Below, one piece after another: positions 2,436-53,997 of a stretch of DNA of 63,133 nt. The notes below the pieces were generated by a model that saw only the letters and a program-made list of their open reading frames with translations, had not been told where the DNA came from and ran no database searches. The position numbers and the translations under genes were made by a program. Each line of letters begins with the position of its first letter. The stretch's first letter is position 1. This DNA is from an uncultured bacterium (GTDB lineage Bacteria > Bdellovibrionota_C > UBA2361 > JANWWW01), in contig CALHSA010000002.1 in the NCBI GenBank assembly GCA_938038205.1, forward strand, positions 1-63,133. The letters are read 5' to 3'.

Positions 2436-3360
2436 ATACTTTTTTAAAATCGGTGGTTAGGGAGTAATGACCATCCTCAAATATTAGGATTCTATAATCT
2501 GAGAAAAAATTTGGTTCTATAGTTTTTAAGCAAGCAAATATTGAGATTGCCAGTCTCCTAATCTCAATATCCGCTGAGGGGTGGGATCTCATCTCTATAA
2601 AGTGTCTCCATGCTCTAAGGTTACCAGTTACAACTATAGGAGCCTCAAGCTCATGAGGCAAACACATTCTAGAGAGCTGATTTATTCTTTTTTTTCTATC
2701 TGTTTTAGCATGAGGCCCCTCCTCCACTTTTAAAAAGCTAAAATCCCCCTCATTGAGGTATTCTTTTAACTCTAAGTAACTCTTATAGGCACGATTTATT
2801 CTCTCAATAAATTTCTGATGCAGAGTATCATCTGTTTGAAATTCATACCTCTCAACAAATCTAAGACTCAGTTCATCAACGTACCTTGTACTTTGCTGAC
2901 TGTAAGCGAATCCAGCCCTATGTCTAATAAATTCATGAGTAGTTGCCCTTGAGATTCCATATAATAGAAAAGAGTAATTTGCATGCTCAAAAACTGAACC
3001 ATGCCCAGATTTTTTTAAGTTTAAAAGGTACTCAGCTACCCTGTTATTGAATGTTCTTTTAGGACCAAAACTGCAATAACAAGTTTGTCCGGCAAACTTA
3101 ACCAAAGCCTCCCCTGAGGTTAAAATTCTTGTATCATCATCTAGGTACCCTAAAAAATCCTCTCCATAACCCTCTAAGTACCCTCTAATATTTTCAATAT
3201 TAGTATTGGGTTTTGAAAGCAAAATTACCCCAGGTGACCTAAGATACCGCACACCTTCATCTGTGAAATAAACAGTCGATTCAATTAATGGCCAACCATT
3301 TAAGTTTGCAACACCTAAATCCTTGCATAGGTTCTCAAACCCTACATCTTTAGTATCCAT
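2434..3360 (-). CDS. thyX: FAD-dependent thymidylate synthase ThyX
   Basis: ThyX makes dTMP from dUMP using methylene-tetrahydrofolate, FAD and NADPH in the cytoplasm. The ThyX signature is recognisable as FIRHRAGFAYSQQSTRYV, near residues 150-167 of the chosen protein. The spacing from RHR to the following STRY is one residue longer than in the usual RHRx7S motif. At 308 aa it is longer than the ~220-aa family core and has an N-terminal extension. I chose the ATG at 3360, which has AAGG just upstream. An in-frame start at 3432 would add 24 residues that look translated from the promoter region. Convergent with the upstream 221-aa gene; divergent from the pilin gene. Confidence 0.93.
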   Translation of the reverse strand: MDTKDVGFENLCKDLGVANLNGWPLIESTVYFTDEGVRYLRSPGVILLSKPNTNIENIRGYLEGYGEDFLGYLDDDTRILTSGEALVKFAGQTCYCSFGPKRTFNNRVAEYLLNLKKSGHGSVFEHANYSFLLYGISRATTHEFIRHRAGFAYSQQSTRYVDELSLRFVERYEFQTDDTLHQKFIERINRAYKSYLELKEYLNEGDFSFLKVEEGPHAKTDRKKRINQLSRMCLPHELEAPIVVTGNLRAWRHFIEMRSHPSADIEIRRLAISIFACLKTIEPNFFSDYRILIFEDGHYSLTTDFKKV

Positions 3361-3409: not shown

Positions 3410-3504
3410 TTTTTGTCACTAATTAAAAACAAAAAAACTAAAAAAAGTACTTATATATTAAAAATACGACTAAAAGTACATTATCCAAACACCAATAAGC
3501 TGTA

Positions 3505-3520
3505 TGGCATAATACTTGCT
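3505..3520 (+). promoter_or_regulatory. candidate sigma-54 (RpoN) promoter of the pilin gene
   Basis: TGGCATAATACTTGCT matches the -24/-12 consensus TGGCAC-N5-TTGCT with one mismatch. The GG (3506-3507) and GC (3518-3519) are separated by exactly 10 nt. Sigma-54 control of pilA is well established in Myxococcus, Geobacter and Pseudomonas. The predicted start near 3531 would leave a leader of only ~13 nt, just enough to hold the GGAGG. Confidence 0.6.
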
Positions 3521-3543
3521 ATGAATTTTTGCGGAGGTTAAAA

Positions 3544-3951
3544 ATGCCAGTGAAGAAAAAGAAGAAAAAAAATACAAAAAAAGGGTTTACATTAATTGAG
3601 CTACTAGTAGTAGTTGCCATTGTTGGAATTCTAGCAGCAATTGCTATTCCTCAGTTTCAAAGATATAGAGAAAGGGCTTTCGATGCTCGAGCTCAATCTG
3701 ATTTGCGAAATTTAATGACTGCCCAGGAGGCGTACTTTGTTGATAACGAATCCTACACATCGACTTTGAATGACTTAGCAAACTTTGGCTTTAGACCAAG
3801 CAGTGGCGTTACAGTGACCATAACATCTGCAGACGGATCATCCTGGTCGGCTTATGCTGAGCATCCCTCAGGAACAAGACGATTCTGCTACAATTCTGAG
3901 GGTGCATCCAATGGAATTGTCTCCGTTGCACGTGGCACAGATTGCCCTTAA
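3544..3951 (+). CDS. type IV pilin-like protein
   Basis: This is a prepilin of 135 aa. A short, very basic leader (about ten Lys) precedes the cleavage and methylation motif [20 protein letters not shown]; peptidase cleavage would fall after the Gly and the mature protein would start with Phe, with Glu5 present. The hydrophobic helix continues to QFQRYRERA and is followed by a globular domain. Two C-terminal cysteines (RFCYNSE and TDCP) could form the D-loop disulfide typical of pilins. The ATG at 3544 has GGAGG 6 nt upstream; a TTG at 3529 would lie across the promoter start. It is monocistronic, with a sigma-54-type promoter in front and a strong terminator behind. Major pilin (PilA) is likely, but a minor pseudopilin cannot be excluded. 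Confidence 0.88.
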
Positions 3952-3958
3952 TGTAGAA

Positions 3959-6583
3959 TTAGGTTTGATATAAGGTTAGTGGTCCCGGGTTTTCCCCGCC
4001 CGGGACTTTTTTTATTTTTAAAACCAAACGGTTTTTACTTTCTTCAAACCAAGCTCTACTAGTAAAAGTAGCGATTTTAGCAATTAATAATCTCTTTAAA
4101 AGGTAATTTCCTGATAACTTTATATTCTTTCTTAAGTTGTATTTTTTATCTCTAAGCTTAATCAGAGCGAGTAACTTCAAAATTTTTAGTTTAAGTTTTA
4201 AGATTTTAGTTTTTATATAACCTTCATCGATGTTGAAGTAGTAACGAAGTTTAAATTTACCCTTTGGTTTTAAAAGAAAATGTATAATTAACCAAATCAT
4301 TACAGCGATATTTCTTACTGTTCGCTGAAACACTAAGTTAAATATCGTAGAATCTTTTCTTCGATATTTAAACTTTTTCACTAAATTAAGGGCTATTTTT
4401 TTTAATCCAATCTTGATAACTTGATTCACTGTTGTTTGATTTCGGAACCAAAAGTTTTTTACTGTACTTAGAGTTTTATTTTTAATCTTTAGTGAATATT
4501 TAATTATAATTCTTGATTTTAATAATTCTCTTATATAGCTAGTAGAGTTTTTTACGATTGATTTTAATGATTCCCTTACATTGTAATACTTACAGTCGCG
4601 TTTATGTTTAGTTAGTCCTTCCCTTTTGTTTAAAAGTAATTTAACTCGCAAATAAAATTTCAGTTGATTCAGTCTAATTGACTTTAATATTATCATCAAT
4701 CTCTTGTGGATGAAGGTCTTAATTGAGTGAGTTCCTCTTATTTGGAGATCTCTTATAAGTGAAAGAGTGTTAAATCTTGTTTTAAGTGTTAATAATTTCA
4801 GTAGCGGATTCCTATTATTTTTTAATCTAGCATAAGATTTGGAGAGTGAACCATTAAATGAGGGTGAAAAAATAACTCTGTGTAACTTTCGTAATATATC
4901 ATGGAGCCTATAAAAAATTTTTGTATCAGAGATAAGCTGTTTTACATAAGTTCCTTTAAAAGCTAAGACTTCATTTAAATTAAATTTCACAAGTGGGGGA
5001 GTTCGATTTGGTATCAGTGATTTAATCACCGGATTTCTCTTTTCGCCATAACTTTTTTTGATTGGTAATTTAAAATTAAATGAAACTGCACTATTTTTGT
5101 GTCTGTCTAACGTACCCTCCCCTTTCTCAAGCTTTAAAGTTTTAAGATTTGTATTGGGTTTATTATGTGCACCTTTGTATTTTTTTAATCTAACTATCGA
5201 TCCCTCGGAAAAAAACTTATTTTTGTTGCTCTTTTCTGAATACTTGTCTAAAGTATTCGGCTTTATCTTTCTTGGTTCCTGATATTTGGAATTGGGAGAG
5301 AATATAACATATAGTTTTTTATTTGAGGGGTTTACAGTAGTAAATAAAGGATTTCCGAGAACCAAATTAGTTCTTTCTGTTAGTTCTTTAACCCTTAACT
5401 TATAAGTTTGGTCTTGAGACCTTACGCTTTTATTTGGAGCTGATTTGCTATGTAAGTTAGGAGTTGAGTTATGATTTTTATGTGCATTTTCAAATCCTTT
5501 TAAACTATATTTTGTAATCACTCCCTGGTTGTCGGAGATATTCAGTGTTTCAGGATTAGAATTTAGTATAAAATTGGAACTTTCAATCCGATTCCTTAGA
5601 GGCTGTAATAAGGTATCTAAAGAGCCTTCCCTAGAGAGAGTCAAAAGATTGTGATCTAGTAAAAGAGAAGATTCGAGTGTTTCAATATCGTTGAATATAT
5701 TGTACCTCTGAGGCTTATTTTTTTGAGACTGAAACAACGTGTTTGAAGGCTTTTCCTTTAAAGGTTTAAGATACTTATTTTTATTTCTATTTGCCGTATG
5801 TATTAAGTGCATGGTTAATTTCGGTGGTTTTTGTGCAGGATCTGATTTTGTGCTAGCAATCTCAGTATAATGTTTATTTTCACTTTTATAAAAAAGCGTG
5901 CTTATTTGATCCCTATCAGTAGAGAAAAGAAATCTCTCAGGGAATGATTTAAAATGTTCCCTTATTAACACGTAAAACCTTAACATGTTCATTAAATATG
6001 TGTAAGCCGAGGGTTTCTCTTCAAAGATTGATGACCAAAACCTTTCCTCGGAGCTTATCTTTTTTTGTAGTTGTTCGCCACTCTCACAGCCTATTAATTT
6101 TCTGAAAAAATTCTGTGGAGTTATTCCGCTTAATTTTAGTATACCATCCTCTGAGGCTTTAAAGTATTTTAAAAACTCCTCTAATCTGACTTTGTTCTTG
6201 ATGTTTATTGGAATACACGTAACATCTACACGATCCCCGTTTCTTTGAAATAAATAAGCAACAAGAATTTTACTATTAGGGGTACGATTACCATCAGGTG
6301 TTGAGATTATACAGCAAACTCCTTCTTCTCCAGCTATTAAAAGTTCTTCTAAGCGAAGATACTTTTTCTGAAGGTTTTCTTCACAATGAGCCACTAAATT
6401 CCTAAATTCAAAACCGTTACACATTAAAGTGGATTTACCATTCTCTTCTGGCACTATCTCATAACTAAAAGTAGTAGGTTTGTTAGACACTTCTCGTAGA
6501 AAACCAACAAAGAAAGCTGCGATAGTTTTGGATCCTAGATGTATATCTTTAGTTGGATTAGTACAATGAGTTATGGAGCTCAC
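3959..6583 (-). CDS. unknown large basic protein coupled to sppA
   Basis: I do not recognise this 874-aa protein. Residues 1-~220 look like a folded domain with beta-rich stretches (VCCIISTPDG, VDVTCIPINI). Residues ~230-530 are low-complexity and rich in Asn, Lys, Ser and Pro, and are probably disordered. The last ~340 residues are extremely rich in Lys, Arg, Leu and Ile, in helical runs, with one possible hydrophobic segment (AVMIWLIIHFLL). The GTG at 6583 overlaps the sppA stop as GTGA, so it is probably translationally coupled; a TTG at 6586 is the alternative. Its last codons run through the pilin terminator, so the end of the gene reads KKVPGGENPGPLTLYQT. It is uninterrupted over 2.6 kb, which argues for a real gene. 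Confidence 0.6.
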   Translation of the reverse strand: MSSITHCTNPTKDIHLGSKTIAAFFVGFLREVSNKPTTFSYEIVPEENGKSTLMCNGFEFRNLVAHCEENLQKKYLRLEELLIAGEEGVCCIISTPDGNRTPNSKILVAYLFQRNGDRVDVTCIPINIKNKVRLEEFLKYFKASEDGILKLSGITPQNFFRKLIGCESGEQLQKKISSEERFWSSIFEEKPSAYTYLMNMLRFYVLIREHFKSFPERFLFSTDRDQISTLFYKSENKHYTEIASTKSDPAQKPPKLTMHLIHTANRNKNKYLKPLKEKPSNTLFQSQKNKPQRYNIFNDIETLESSLLLDHNLLTLSREGSLDTLLQPLRNRIESSNFILNSNPETLNISDNQGVITKYSLKGFENAHKNHNSTPNLHSKSAPNKSVRSQDQTYKLRVKELTERTNLVLGNPLFTTVNPSNKKLYVIFSPNSKYQEPRKIKPNTLDKYSEKSNKNKFFSEGSIVRLKKYKGAHNKPNTNLKTLKLEKGEGTLDRHKNSAVSFNFKLPIKKSYGEKRNPVIKSLIPNRTPPLVKFNLNEVLAFKGTYVKQLISDTKIFYRLHDILRKLHRVIFSPSFNGSLSKSYARLKNNRNPLLKLLTLKTRFNTLSLIRDLQIRGTHSIKTFIHKRLMIILKSIRLNQLKFYLRVKLLLNKREGLTKHKRDCKYYNVRESLKSIVKNSTSYIRELLKSRIIIKYSLKIKNKTLSTVKNFWFRNQTTVNQVIKIGLKKIALNLVKKFKYRRKDSTIFNLVFQRTVRNIAVMIWLIIHFLLKPKGKFKLRYYFNIDEGYIKTKILKLKLKILKLLALIKLRDKKYNLRKNIKLSGNYLLKRLLIAKIATFTSRAWFEESKNRLVLKIKKVPGGENPGPLTLYQT
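3982..4013 (+). terminator. rho-independent terminator of the pilin gene
   Basis: The arms gtcccggg (3982-3989) and cccgggac (3999-4006) form a strong 8-bp GC stem with a 9-nt loop, followed by seven T. It lies 31 nt after the pilin stop. The same DNA encodes the C-terminus of the convergent 874-aa gene. Confidence 0.92.
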
Positions 6584-7443
6584 CAAGCATAATATTGTAA
6601 AAGCCTACTAGATAGAAAATCATTAAAACTTATACCTAAAATCTCTTTAATAAATTCAGTGTAATCTTTCGGAATTACCAACAACGGATCTTTGCCAGTA
6701 ATTCCGGCTAATTCTAGGGATGCTTTTGCTGCCTTAAAAATATCACCAAAATCATCTATAAGCCCATACTCAAGGGCTTCTTGACCAGTTAAAAACCTAC
6801 CATCTGCAAACCTTCCTACTTGATCCTCGGATAAACCTCGAGCAAGCGCGATATCTTGAATAAATTGTTTGTGTATTTTTCCTGTGGCCTCTTTCAAAAA
6901 TTCTCTTTCTTTGTCACTTAGTGGTCTGAAAATATTACCTACATCCTTTAAATCGCCACTTTTTACCGTTTCAAATTTTATTCCAACTTTATTAGTTAAG
7001 TCTGACAAATCAGGTATCTGCATAATAACACCTATGGAACCTGTTATCGTTCCAGGTTGTGCAAATACTTTTTTTCCGGCTACTGCAACGTATAATCCTC
7101 CCGATGCTGCAATCGAACCCATACTTGATACAATAGGTTTTTCCTTAATGGATCTTATGAAAGAGAATAATTCCTGGCTAGGGCCTACGGCACCACCTGG
7201 GGAGTCAATCCTGATTACAATAGATTTTATCGATTCATCTCTTAAAAACTGCCTAATTCTACGAATAGAGTCAAGGGAGTCAATAATTGGCCCTACTATT
7301 CTTACTACACCAACTTTTTGGTAATTAGTAAGCAACTGATCTTCTTTGAATTTTATAAATTTCTCAGCAACTAATCCCAATAAAATCACTAAAACTAAGA
7401 TAGTTAAAATTTTTAATACCCACAGAAAAAATGATTTAATCAT
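6580..7443 (-). CDS. sppA: signal peptide peptidase SppA, short form
   Basis: SppA is a membrane serine protease (family S49) that degrades cleaved signal peptides. An N-terminal membrane anchor spans about residues 4-26. The nucleophile Ser114 lies in GSIAASGGLYVA, and the general-base Lys166 in VKSGDLKDVG. The 287-aa length is that of the single-domain bacillus-type enzyme rather than the doubled E. coli one. It sits between a glycosidase-like lipoprotein gene (5-nt gap) and the basic 874-aa gene (4-nt overlap), so all three are probably cotranscribed. Confidence 0.93.
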   Translation of the reverse strand: MIKSFFLWVLKILTILVLVILLGLVAEKFIKFKEDQLLTNYQKVGVVRIVGPIIDSLDSIRRIRQFLRDESIKSIVIRIDSPGGAVGPSQELFSFIRSIKEKPIVSSMGSIAASGGLYVAVAGKKVFAQPGTITGSIGVIMQIPDLSDLTNKVGIKFETVKSGDLKDVGNIFRPLSDKEREFLKEATGKIHKQFIQDIALARGLSEDQVGRFADGRFLTGQEALEYGLIDDFGDIFKAAKASLELAGITGKDPLLVIPKDYTEFIKEILGISFNDFLSSRLLQYYAW

Positions 7444-7448
7444 GGTAA

Positions 7449-8456
7449 TTAGTTTAACAATTTCAAGTATAAATCGCTAAATGGAAATTTTGAAAGGTTT
7501 CTTAAACCATAAGTCCCATCAGGTGGTGCGTCTTCGGTGTAAGTATATATGTATATCACTTCCAAGTTTCTCAAATTTTCCACTAAAAATGGCCATACTC
7601 TCTCACCATACTCTAGCTGCTTGTTAATACCTCTTGCGCCAGATTCAGTCACTAATATGGGCTTTCTAACTCTTGATAGAACATCCTTTATGCCACCTTT
7701 TACAAAAAATTTTTCAAACTGACTCCCGTAAATATGAACTGCCCATTTGTCAACCAATCGATGAGCACCAAGAGATATTAGATCTTTGTTATATTCCAAA
7801 GCGTTATTGCTGTTTTGATTAATAGCTGTAGTTGCCGCATTCACCAAAGCTTTATTCACTCTTTTTGAGTTAAAAAGGTCTCTTGAATACGCAAGCAACT
7901 CATAGTAGTTGGAAGGAGATTTGAAGCCCATTACTGCATTTTCCGTCAGAGACTTATCGTTTGGCTCATTCCAAACTTGGACTGCCTTTATCAAATGAGC
8001 TTTTTTTACATACTCAAGTAGTGGATCTAACCAATACGTAATAAATGATACCCTTGGATTGTCCTGAATCCAATTTTTCCTGTCACTCATCCATGAAGGT
8101 AACCCCGTTGTAACTAAAATTATGTCCACATTTTCTGGTATCTCACTAAGTATCGAATCTAAAAAAGTGAAATTAGGACTAACCTTTGGACTTGGATGTG
8201 ATTTATCATCCCACCTAAGTAAAACTCTGATCTTTTTAAATTTTAAGTTTTTAGTAACATCATCTGCTTGATTTTTTATTGTTCCAAACCTGCTATCATT
8301 AAAAAACGCATTAATACCAAGCTTACTCCGCGGTAACTCCTTTCTTGGAGGATCTTTAAGTACACTCTCAATTTTTTCTTTATCCAAACACGCCCCAAAA
8401 ACAAGCAGGATCAGAGTAAAAACTAGTAAATGAATACTAGAGCTTAATTTTGTCAT
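7449..8456 (-). CDS. lipoprotein with glycoside hydrolase clan A-like fold
   Basis: The protein has a signal peptide ending in a lipobox, LVFGAC, with Cys23, so it should be lipid-anchored outside the cytoplasm. The body resembles a TIM-barrel glycosidase of clan GH-A. The acid/base Glu164 lies in VQVWNEPND, and the likely nucleophile Glu271 in ILVTESGARG. These two motifs on strands 4 and 7 are the clan hallmark. Length is 335 aa. The substrate cannot be told; the GH family is not assigned. The start codon is 8 nt from a run of seven G on the coding strand (8465-8471), which occupies the ribosome binding region. Confidence 0.75.
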   Translation of the reverse strand: MTKLSSSIHLLVFTLILLVFGACLDKEKIESVLKDPPRKELPRSKLGINAFFNDSRFGTIKNQADDVTKNLKFKKIRVLLRWDDKSHPSPKVSPNFTFLDSILSEIPENVDIILVTTGLPSWMSDRKNWIQDNPRVSFITYWLDPLLEYVKKAHLIKAVQVWNEPNDKSLTENAVMGFKSPSNYYELLAYSRDLFNSKRVNKALVNAATTAINQNSNNALEYNKDLISLGAHRLVDKWAVHIYGSQFEKFFVKGGIKDVLSRVRKPILVTESGARGINKQLEYGERVWPFLVENLRNLEVIYIYTYTEDAPPDGTYGLRNLSKFPFSDLYLKLLN

Positions 8457-52128: not shown

Positions 52129-53997
52129 GTGAGGTATTATGAAGTTTTAGCAGTTATATTAATATTAGGTTTAGGATTTCTTTTAGTCTTACCAATCCCC
52201 CCAATTATATTAGACTTTGTCATTACCCTAAATATCGCCTTATCAATTCTAATGCTTGCCTCCTGTTTATTTACAATTAGAATTAGTAATCTTTTGATTT
52301 TTCCAACTATCCTTTTAATACTAACTCTTCTTCGAATTGCAACTAACGTGGCAACAACTAGGATGATTTTAACTCAAGCTTACGCTGGAGAAATCATAAA
52401 TACATTTGGCAAGGTTTTAATTCAAGGAGAGGTATTAGTTGGATTGATTATTTTCTCATTAATCTCATTAGTGTCGTTAATTATTATATCAAGAGGAGCG
52501 TTAAGAATATCAGAGGTAGCCGCAAGATTCACCTTAGATGCTATGCCAACGAGGCAAATCGCTATAGAACAAGAATTTAAAGAGGGGGAGATAAGTTTTC
52601 GAGAAGCACAGAGGAAACGAGATGAATTAAGAAAGGAGAGCATGCTTTATGGATCCATGGAAGGAGCAATGAAATTTATCCAGGGAGACGCAATTATTAG
52701 TGTTATTACAGTTTTAATAAACTTGGGTGGAGGAATCTTTATAGGTATGAAAAATAAATTAACCTTTCAACAAGCTCTTGAAAAATATAGTGTTCTTACC
52801 GTAGGAGATGGTTTAGTAGCACAAATCCCTGCTCTATTCTTAGCGATCTCTGCAGGTATTATTGTTTCCCGTGTAAGCTCTCTCGCCAATGAGAGTATTC
52901 TAAAGGAAACATTACAGAATATTTTTTCACGAAAAGATACCCTACTTATTACCGGTTTGGTTTTACTCGGAATCAGCCTAATACCTGGAGTTCCCTCAAT
53001 ATCGTTTTTTGTAATTGGATTTGGATTTATAGTTGCTGGATTTTTAATTCCATCTAAACAAACGTTTTATGAAAAACTTGATCCCTCACAGATTTTTCTT
53101 CTTGAAATTCCTGAAGTAAAGTTACAACATTTTTCACTGGATACATTACAAGAATTTTCAGACAGAATATGTAACATCCTCTCAGAGGTACTAAACCTCC
53201 CTATTCCCAAAATCATTTTATCATCTAGTAAAAGCACTGAAATTTATCTAAAAATTAAAAATCGCAAGTATACGATCTCTGATTTAGGTTCAGATAAAAT
53301 GCTTATTAATGCTCCTATTTTTTACGCGCAACTCTTTAAAGATAAAGATATTTCAGAGATACGGATTCCACTTAGTGACATGATTGGACTTGTTGCATCT
53401 GCTTCAACCAAAACTAAGACCTTTGTATCAACTCTTAAAATAAGCTTTTTCTCCAACTTGGAATACGTATTATTAAAGGCTTATGAAACAATTTTAACCT
53501 CCCCAGAGACTTTTATAGATGTAACGGCAGTTTTAAATTTATTAAGAGATTTATCAAAAAGCTTCCCAGATCTTGAGAATATTATTAACTCCGATAAGTT
53601 TTTACCAGTTACAAAAATCTCAAGTCTTATTAGATGCTTGCTAAAGAATAATCTTTCTATTAACAGCTATCCGCTTTTTGTTGAATTAATAAATAATCTT
53701 TGTTTGAGGTATAATCAAACAAGATATGATGATACCCTTACAGTAGAAGATGTTTATACTTTGTTGATTGAAGAAGATTCGGGGGTTTTGGATCTTAGGG
53801 AAGAGGTGCTTTTTGATTTAGTTAGGTTTGGATGCGCTAAGCAGGAGTCAGGTATTGCAAGTGTGCTTGATAGGAATAGAAAATATGGAACGGTTCCTTT
53901 GGTGATTATAGAAGAAAATTCTGATTCTCTTAATAACTTAAGAGTTATTAATCAGTCGAAAAGCTTAAGAATAGATCCTTTTATGTTTAATTTTTGA
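52129..53997 (+). CDS. type III export gate protein, SctV-type (FlhA/SctV family)
   Basis: This family forms the nonameric export gate of injectisomes and flagella. Residues 1-~310 hold about eight membrane segments with LLRIATNVATTRMIL, the conserved RFTLDAMPTRQIAIEQEF loop and GDGLVAQIPALFLAISAGIIVSR (split: GDGLVAQIPAL, SAGIIVSR). The segment RKESMLYGSMEGAMKFIQGD matches the LYGxMxGAMKF form of SctV rather than the FYGAMDGASKF form of FlhA. The C-terminal cytoplasmic domain is ~290 residues. The total of 622 aa is shorter than usual (about 690). The start is GTG at 52129, because an in-frame stop lies just upstream and the nearby ATG (52139) is out of frame. No other secretion-ring gene is in the window. 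Confidence 0.88.
   Translation: MRYYEVLAVILILGLGFLLVLPIPPIILDFVITLNIALSILMLASCLFTIRISNLLIFPTILLILTLLRIATNVATTRMILTQAYAGEIINTFGKVLIQGEVLVGLIIFSLISLVSLIIISRGALRISEVAARFTLDAMPTRQIAIEQEFKEGEISFREAQRKRDELRKESMLYGSMEGAMKFIQGDAIISVITVLINLGGGIFIGMKNKLTFQQALEKYSVLTVGDGLVAQIPALFLAISAGIIVSRVSSLANESILKETLQNIFSRKDTLLITGLVLLGISLIPGVPSISFFVIGFGFIVAGFLIPSKQTFYEKLDPSQIFLLEIPEVKLQHFSLDTLQEFSDRICNILSEVLNLPIPKIILSSSKSTEIYLKIKNRKYTISDLGSDKMLINAPIFYAQLFKDKDISEIRIPLSDMIGLVASASTKTKTFVSTLKISFFSNLEYVLLKAYETILTSPETFIDVTAVLNLLRDLSKSFPDLENIINSDKFLPVTKISSLIRCLLKNNLSINSYPLFVELINNLCLRYNQTRYDDTLTVEDVYTLLIEEDSGVLDLREEVLFDLVRFGCAKQESGIASVLDRNRKYGTVPLVIIEENSDSLNNLRVINQSKSLRIDPFMFNF

Follow-up and report, generated by a model that had tools for sequence, protein, structure and literature searches.

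An apparently lineage-restricted orphan gene overlapping sppA encodes a very basic protein with a conserved N-terminal region and an unalignable tail

The stretch of DNA analysed here (63,133 nucleotides, hereafter the window) comes from genome G000, a 1.22-Mb assembly of 46 contigs that is 81% complete. Gene X is the last member of a same-strand run of genes, which reads orphan-lgt-nadK-recN-rplY-glycosyl-hydrolase-like gene-sppA-X. A second genome, G001, carries the same run, with a rhomboid protease gene at the variable position between rplY and sppA. In both genomes a convergent type IV pilin-like gene lies 3' of X and is followed by thyX (Table 1). The lgt, nadK, recN, rplY and thyX genes of G001 are those that we take to be such from their position and by eye, thyX having been recovered by search as well. 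The GTG start codon of X overlaps the TGA stop codon of sppA as GTGA, as the initial annotation had described, and the sequence at the junction reads ..gcttGGTGAgctcc...

Table 1 Features of the gene X locus, with coordinates in the window
Feature	Coordinates	Strand	Description
Orphan, 221 aa	1715..2380	+	Lys-rich in its C-terminal half; Pfam gave no credible match
thyX	2437-3357	-	Beyond the convergent pilin-like gene
Convergent type IV pilin-like gene	3529..3951	+	N_methyl 4.9e-10
Gene X, whole coding sequence	3959..6583	-	874 aa; GTG start at 6583; open down to the TAA-type stop at 3961-3959
X tail, residues 521-874	3962..5023	-	Lys/Arg/Leu-rich, Asp/Glu- and Pro-poor, by composition
Terminator-like hairpin and T-tract of the pilin gene	3981..4017	+	10-pair hairpin; traversed by the last X codons
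X middle, residues 221-520	5024..5923	-	Asn-rich, hydrophobic-poor, probably disordered, by composition
X conserved N-terminal region, residues 1-220	5924..6583	-	Alpha/beta core at about residues 35-165
sppA, signal peptide peptidase (S49)	7443..6580	-	Pfam Peptidase_S49 1.1e-42; NCBIfam SppA_dom 1.2e-59
Glycosyl-hydrolase-like, lipoprotein-looking gene	7449..8456	-	Directly before sppA
Orphan, 266 aa	12099..12899	-	Head of the gene run, before lgt; no Pfam match

Two neighbours of X deserve mention in their own right. A search at E 1e-20 recovered thyX from 2 of 45 phylum genomes, and these are the two X-bearing ones. The 266-aa orphan at the head of the run is its second fast-evolving orphan, being 27% identical to its G001 orthologue; comparing it with the N-terminal domain of X gave an hhalign probability of 0.16%, and thus no link between them.

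We observed that the plus strand across 3959-6583 is full of stop codons and holds no ORF of at least 80 aa within 3959-6580. In 300 simulations from a first-order Markov model with the dinucleotide make-up of gene X itself, the longest chance open run was 132 codons. Because X keeps 874 codons open, and because its G001 orthologue shares its start and neighbours, gene X is shown to be a genuine protein-coding gene and not a chance frame. It could instead be argued that X is not a gene but a chance frame, a decayed gene or an assembly artefact, as it matches no family and its codon-position signal is flat in the tail. This idea is opposed by the lack of a sizeable plus-strand ORF and by a long open frame found in two genera with a homologous N-terminal region, the same start and the same neighbours, and we give it practically no weight. 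No stop codon interrupts the frame in G001, the sole relative with the region. Over 3500-7500, Rfam reported nothing at gathering score, and therefore the open frame is not accounted for by any known RNA family. The encoded protein is very basic, as initially noted, with a net charge of +96 and a pI of 10.2, and has the highest charge per residue among the 36 non-overlapping ORFs of at least 200 aa in the window.

That X belongs to no known family was likewise borne out by the searches. Pfam returned no family at E <= 1, either for X or for residues 1-220 alone, and none at E <= 10 for the G001 protein. There was no credible match to X in NCBIfam, PHROGs or PADLOC, and none in plasmid records, phage records or viral contigs; a profile search of PDB sequences with X gave a best value of only E 0.41. 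Going by search listings, nothing on gene X was found in the published literature. Weak matches to frames of 1072-1131 aa (in G003, G004, G033 and G035; E 0.013-0.247) were rejected as one family matched by chance; three of these four look by eye like what we take to be ribonucleotide reductase large subunits.

Among the 57 genomes searched, the own one included, the best match outside the own genome was in G001 (E 0.006), directly 3' of sppA, and G001 is the only other genome in this set from the same taxonomic family. This orthologue (L012:9464-12280) has 938 aa and a GTG start, and its start shares one base with the sppA stop. No internal paralogue of X was found in its own genome. A profile built from the two sequences matched 2 of the 45 phylum genomes at E <= 0.1, and X was not found in the other 43. 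A motif script placed sppA in 31 of 39 genomes (it missed 7, G042 was not scored, and G013 has no downstream DNA), and among these 31 an X-like ORF stands 3' of sppA only in G000 and G001. X is also absent after sppA at loci L045 and L046, read from the 80 kept of 581 sppA loci, where sppA is followed by a gene that we recognised by eye as presumably bioD-like. The association with sppA put forward in the initial annotation is therefore kept, in the same position, in both X-bearing genomes, and is missing from the other 43 phylum genomes. Because of this absence in the profile search, X is, as far as these sequences indicate, not a general companion of sppA. On the basis of two sequences, X is best described as a lineage-restricted orphan family of narrow distribution. 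SppA is 63% identical between the two genomes and X far less, so X evolves fast.

The alignable stretch of the two X proteins comprises about residues 1-220 only. Over this region they are 28% identical and score 99, where shuffles average 31 (z 15.0; none of 300 shuffles scored as high). A model of this domain from two-sequence input had a mean pLDDT of 56.6 and a pTM of 0.60, with ten-residue pLDDT means of about 57-84 for residues 41-170 and lower values at 31-40 and 171-180. Its elements follow the order alpha-beta-beta-alpha-beta-beta-beta-alpha, and the G001 model shows the same order with less confidence. Both the homology and the modelled alpha/beta structure support the folded N-terminal domain initially proposed.

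Foldseek with this model gave no match at E <= 0.001, and its best rows mixed unrelated entries with ones of PAS/LOV, phytochrome, type IV pilus ATPase, roadblock and longin type. In a structural second look, PAS entries ranked first and made up most of the top rows, with Z up to 5.9, under the trustworthy level of Z 8. PAS/LOV domains (FixL PAS 8js6_C, LOV-HK 6ph4_B) show the same helix and strand order as X residues ~30-139; in contrast to them, X has no PAS sequence match in Pfam, no sensor output domain, and a basic tail of 354 residues. The order of elements in both X models is also that of the roadblock/longin folds (dynein light chain 7k58_F, Mon1-Ccz1), to which X likewise has no Pfam match and which cannot be separated from PAS at this model confidence. 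Roadblock/LC7 or longin entries appeared in the Foldseek list at E 0.076-0.33 only, the dynein light chain 7k58_F and Mon1-Ccz1 rows at E 0.14 and worse. With low confidence, we regard the N-terminal domain as PAS/roadblock-like and assign it to neither.

The N-domain profile produced one extra match only (E 0.159), to a FliK-like protein near sppA in G016 whose Flg_hook match (E 1.5e-6) lies just below the Pfam cut-off. This sole outside match raises the idea of X as a diverged ruler of the FliK type, or as a substrate, belonging to a type III secretion system of the phylum. In agreement with it, a Flg_hook gene lies divergent to sppA, at most 3 kb away, in 16 of 39 genomes, and FHIPEP proteins occur in 45 of 45 phylum genomes. 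The proteins adjoining sppA in these 16 genomes also share with X a long low-complexity middle. However, hhalign detected no homology with a profile of all 16 (probabilities of 0.7% and 0.3%), in a comparison where the X profile holds two sequences only and is thus weak for remote homology. Moreover, neither X nor its orthologue has a Flg_hook domain (PF02120) by Pfam, and G000 and G001 each have a Flg_hook match elsewhere, under the family cut-off. The sppA-adjacent FliK-like proteins are neutral or acidic, opposite in charge character to X, and their genes are divergent to sppA, whereas X is co-directional with it. After the genome-wide Flg_hook search and the profile-profile comparison we dropped the FliK link, which we consider very unlikely.

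These searches also yielded observations on secretion genes of the phylum. Examples of the sppA-divergent FliK-like genes are L128:7859-9641, L133:3980-5557 and L137:1173-2735, and in several genomes the gene next to sppA is separate from a stronger, flagellar-type Flg_hook gene elsewhere. FHIPEP (FlhA/SctV) mostly gives at least two matches per genome across the 45 phylum genomes. One recurrent FHIPEP type, of ~620-700 aa, is matched by the model as two segments, interrupted around positions 400-455; in the window, a 622-aa frame at 52129..53997 (+) has a FHIPEP match at 52177-53061.

Beyond the N-terminal domain, the two proteins cannot be aligned, either in the middle (z 0.0 against shuffles) or in the tail (z -0.7), and what recurs is composition. 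Values below are given for G000 and then G001. Net charge is +96 and +78. Compared with an order-2 model, the middle has an excess of Asn (z +3.0, +4.2) and is low in large hydrophobics (z -2.2, -2.7). Compared with base composition, the tail has an excess of Lys+Arg (z +4.6, +4.9) and of Leu (z +3.4, +2.6). Against the order-2 model, the excess of tail net charge is modest (+2.7 and +2.1 s.d.), and neither Lys nor Leu alone is significant there (z 1.1-1.9). Large hydrophobics (ILVFMW) account for 38% and 34% of the tail, and one 19-residue stretch of the G001 tail reaches a Kyte-Doolittle value of 2.21. A basic, hydrophobic tail is therefore kept in 2 of 2 sequences, with a modest excess under the order-2 control.

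In both proteins, middle and tail differ significantly in hydrophobics, Asp+Glu and Pro (p 3.6e-5 to 0.021). For Lys+Arg, the rise reaches significance in G001 (p 0.00046) and fails to do so in G000 (p 0.063), and the Asn contrast has p 0.00049 in G001 and 0.074 in G000. A free three-segment fit revealed strong heterogeneity along both proteins: it gained 25.2 and 30.7, whereas 20 shuffles reached at most 17.9 and 15.4. Its first break coincides with where the basic tail begins (residues 596 and 520) and not with the edge of the N-terminal domain. The three-part build of the initial annotation, a folded N-terminal domain followed by an Asn-rich middle and a basic tail, thus recurs in the G001 orthologue. 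Its helical tail was not supported: the helical moment is no higher than in shuffles (z +0.4 and -1.8), and past the N-terminal domain the full-length G001 model has a pLDDT of ~20-35. Strand-type periodicity in the tail is raised in G000 (z 3.0) and not in G001 (z 0.2).

At its 3' end, X runs into a neighbour's signal that had been missed earlier. The last ~16 codons of X traverse the terminator of the convergent pilin gene, and in G001 the X stop lies inside the loop of the corresponding terminator hairpin. Residues near the X C-terminus are dictated by this terminator. A C-terminal LVLKI common to X and its orthologue was accordingly rejected as a conserved motif, being the terminator T-tract in the same frame.

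This arrangement bears on an explanation in which the N-terminal domain is the functional part of X, while its middle and tail would be a coding extension under weak constraint, lying in A-rich, AT-rich DNA; the frame would simply run on to the pilin terminator, and the basic, Asn- and Leu-rich look would mostly be encoded by such DNA. Consistent with this, in both genomes the frame stops within the terminator or shortly beyond it, and the middle and tail share no sequence similarity. Codon-position G+C, which is 0.45/0.39/0.21 at the N-terminus, becomes almost flat in the tail, pointing to weak constraint at the protein level there. Furthermore, an order-0 model already predicts a net charge per residue of +0.10 and +0.08, about half of that observed, and the charge excess over the order-2 model is only 2-3 s.d. 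The basicity of X is thus partly due to AT-rich DNA and partly beyond it. Against a mere extension stand ~650-700 codons kept open in both genomes and the same middle-to-tail contrast in two unalignable sequences. We see it as a realistic possibility, nearly as likely as selection of the tail for charge, and two sequences cannot separate the two.

Our tentative preference is that X consists of a small adaptor domain joined to a tail selected for its charge, which may bind an anionic surface, probably a membrane; for the tail, this is drawn from two sequences only. In this model, X would be translated by termination-reinitiation after SppA. The N-terminal domain would act as a PAS/roadblock-type adaptor that binds a partner, and the middle would be a flexible spacer. 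The Lys/Arg/Leu tail would then hold X on the anionic surface via many weak contacts, most likely at the membrane's inner face, where SppA is located, and the partner would thereby be concentrated at the membrane. The tail sequence would be free to drift, because net charge and hydrophobicity are what such binding needs.

The charge of both proteins would equally suit a tail that binds nucleic acid, making X a nucleoid- or RNA-associated protein with the N-terminal domain as adaptor. However, disordered nucleic-acid-binding tails are usually less hydrophobic than that of X, and no nucleic-acid-binding family was matched; we find this improbable. The share of large hydrophobics in both tails and the hydrophobic G001 segment lead us to favour the membrane over nucleic acid. 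A more specific version of the membrane proposal, in which X founds a new family, restricted to its lineage, with a small conserved adaptor domain and a polymer-conserved tail of 350-430 residues (that is, one in which charge, Leu content and freedom from stops are kept), translationally coupled to SppA and serving as its dedicated membrane scaffold or cofactor, appears doubtful.

Either way, X represents one orphan family of limited distribution and unusual build. If the tail is not kept for its charge, X would serve as a useful caution that drift in AT-rich DNA can mimic a polybasic domain. If it is kept for charge alone, X would offer a clean example, from bacteria, of a very long segment in which the polymer and not the sequence is conserved, located after a series of core genes, and SppA, few of whose partners are known, would gain a candidate companion in one lineage.
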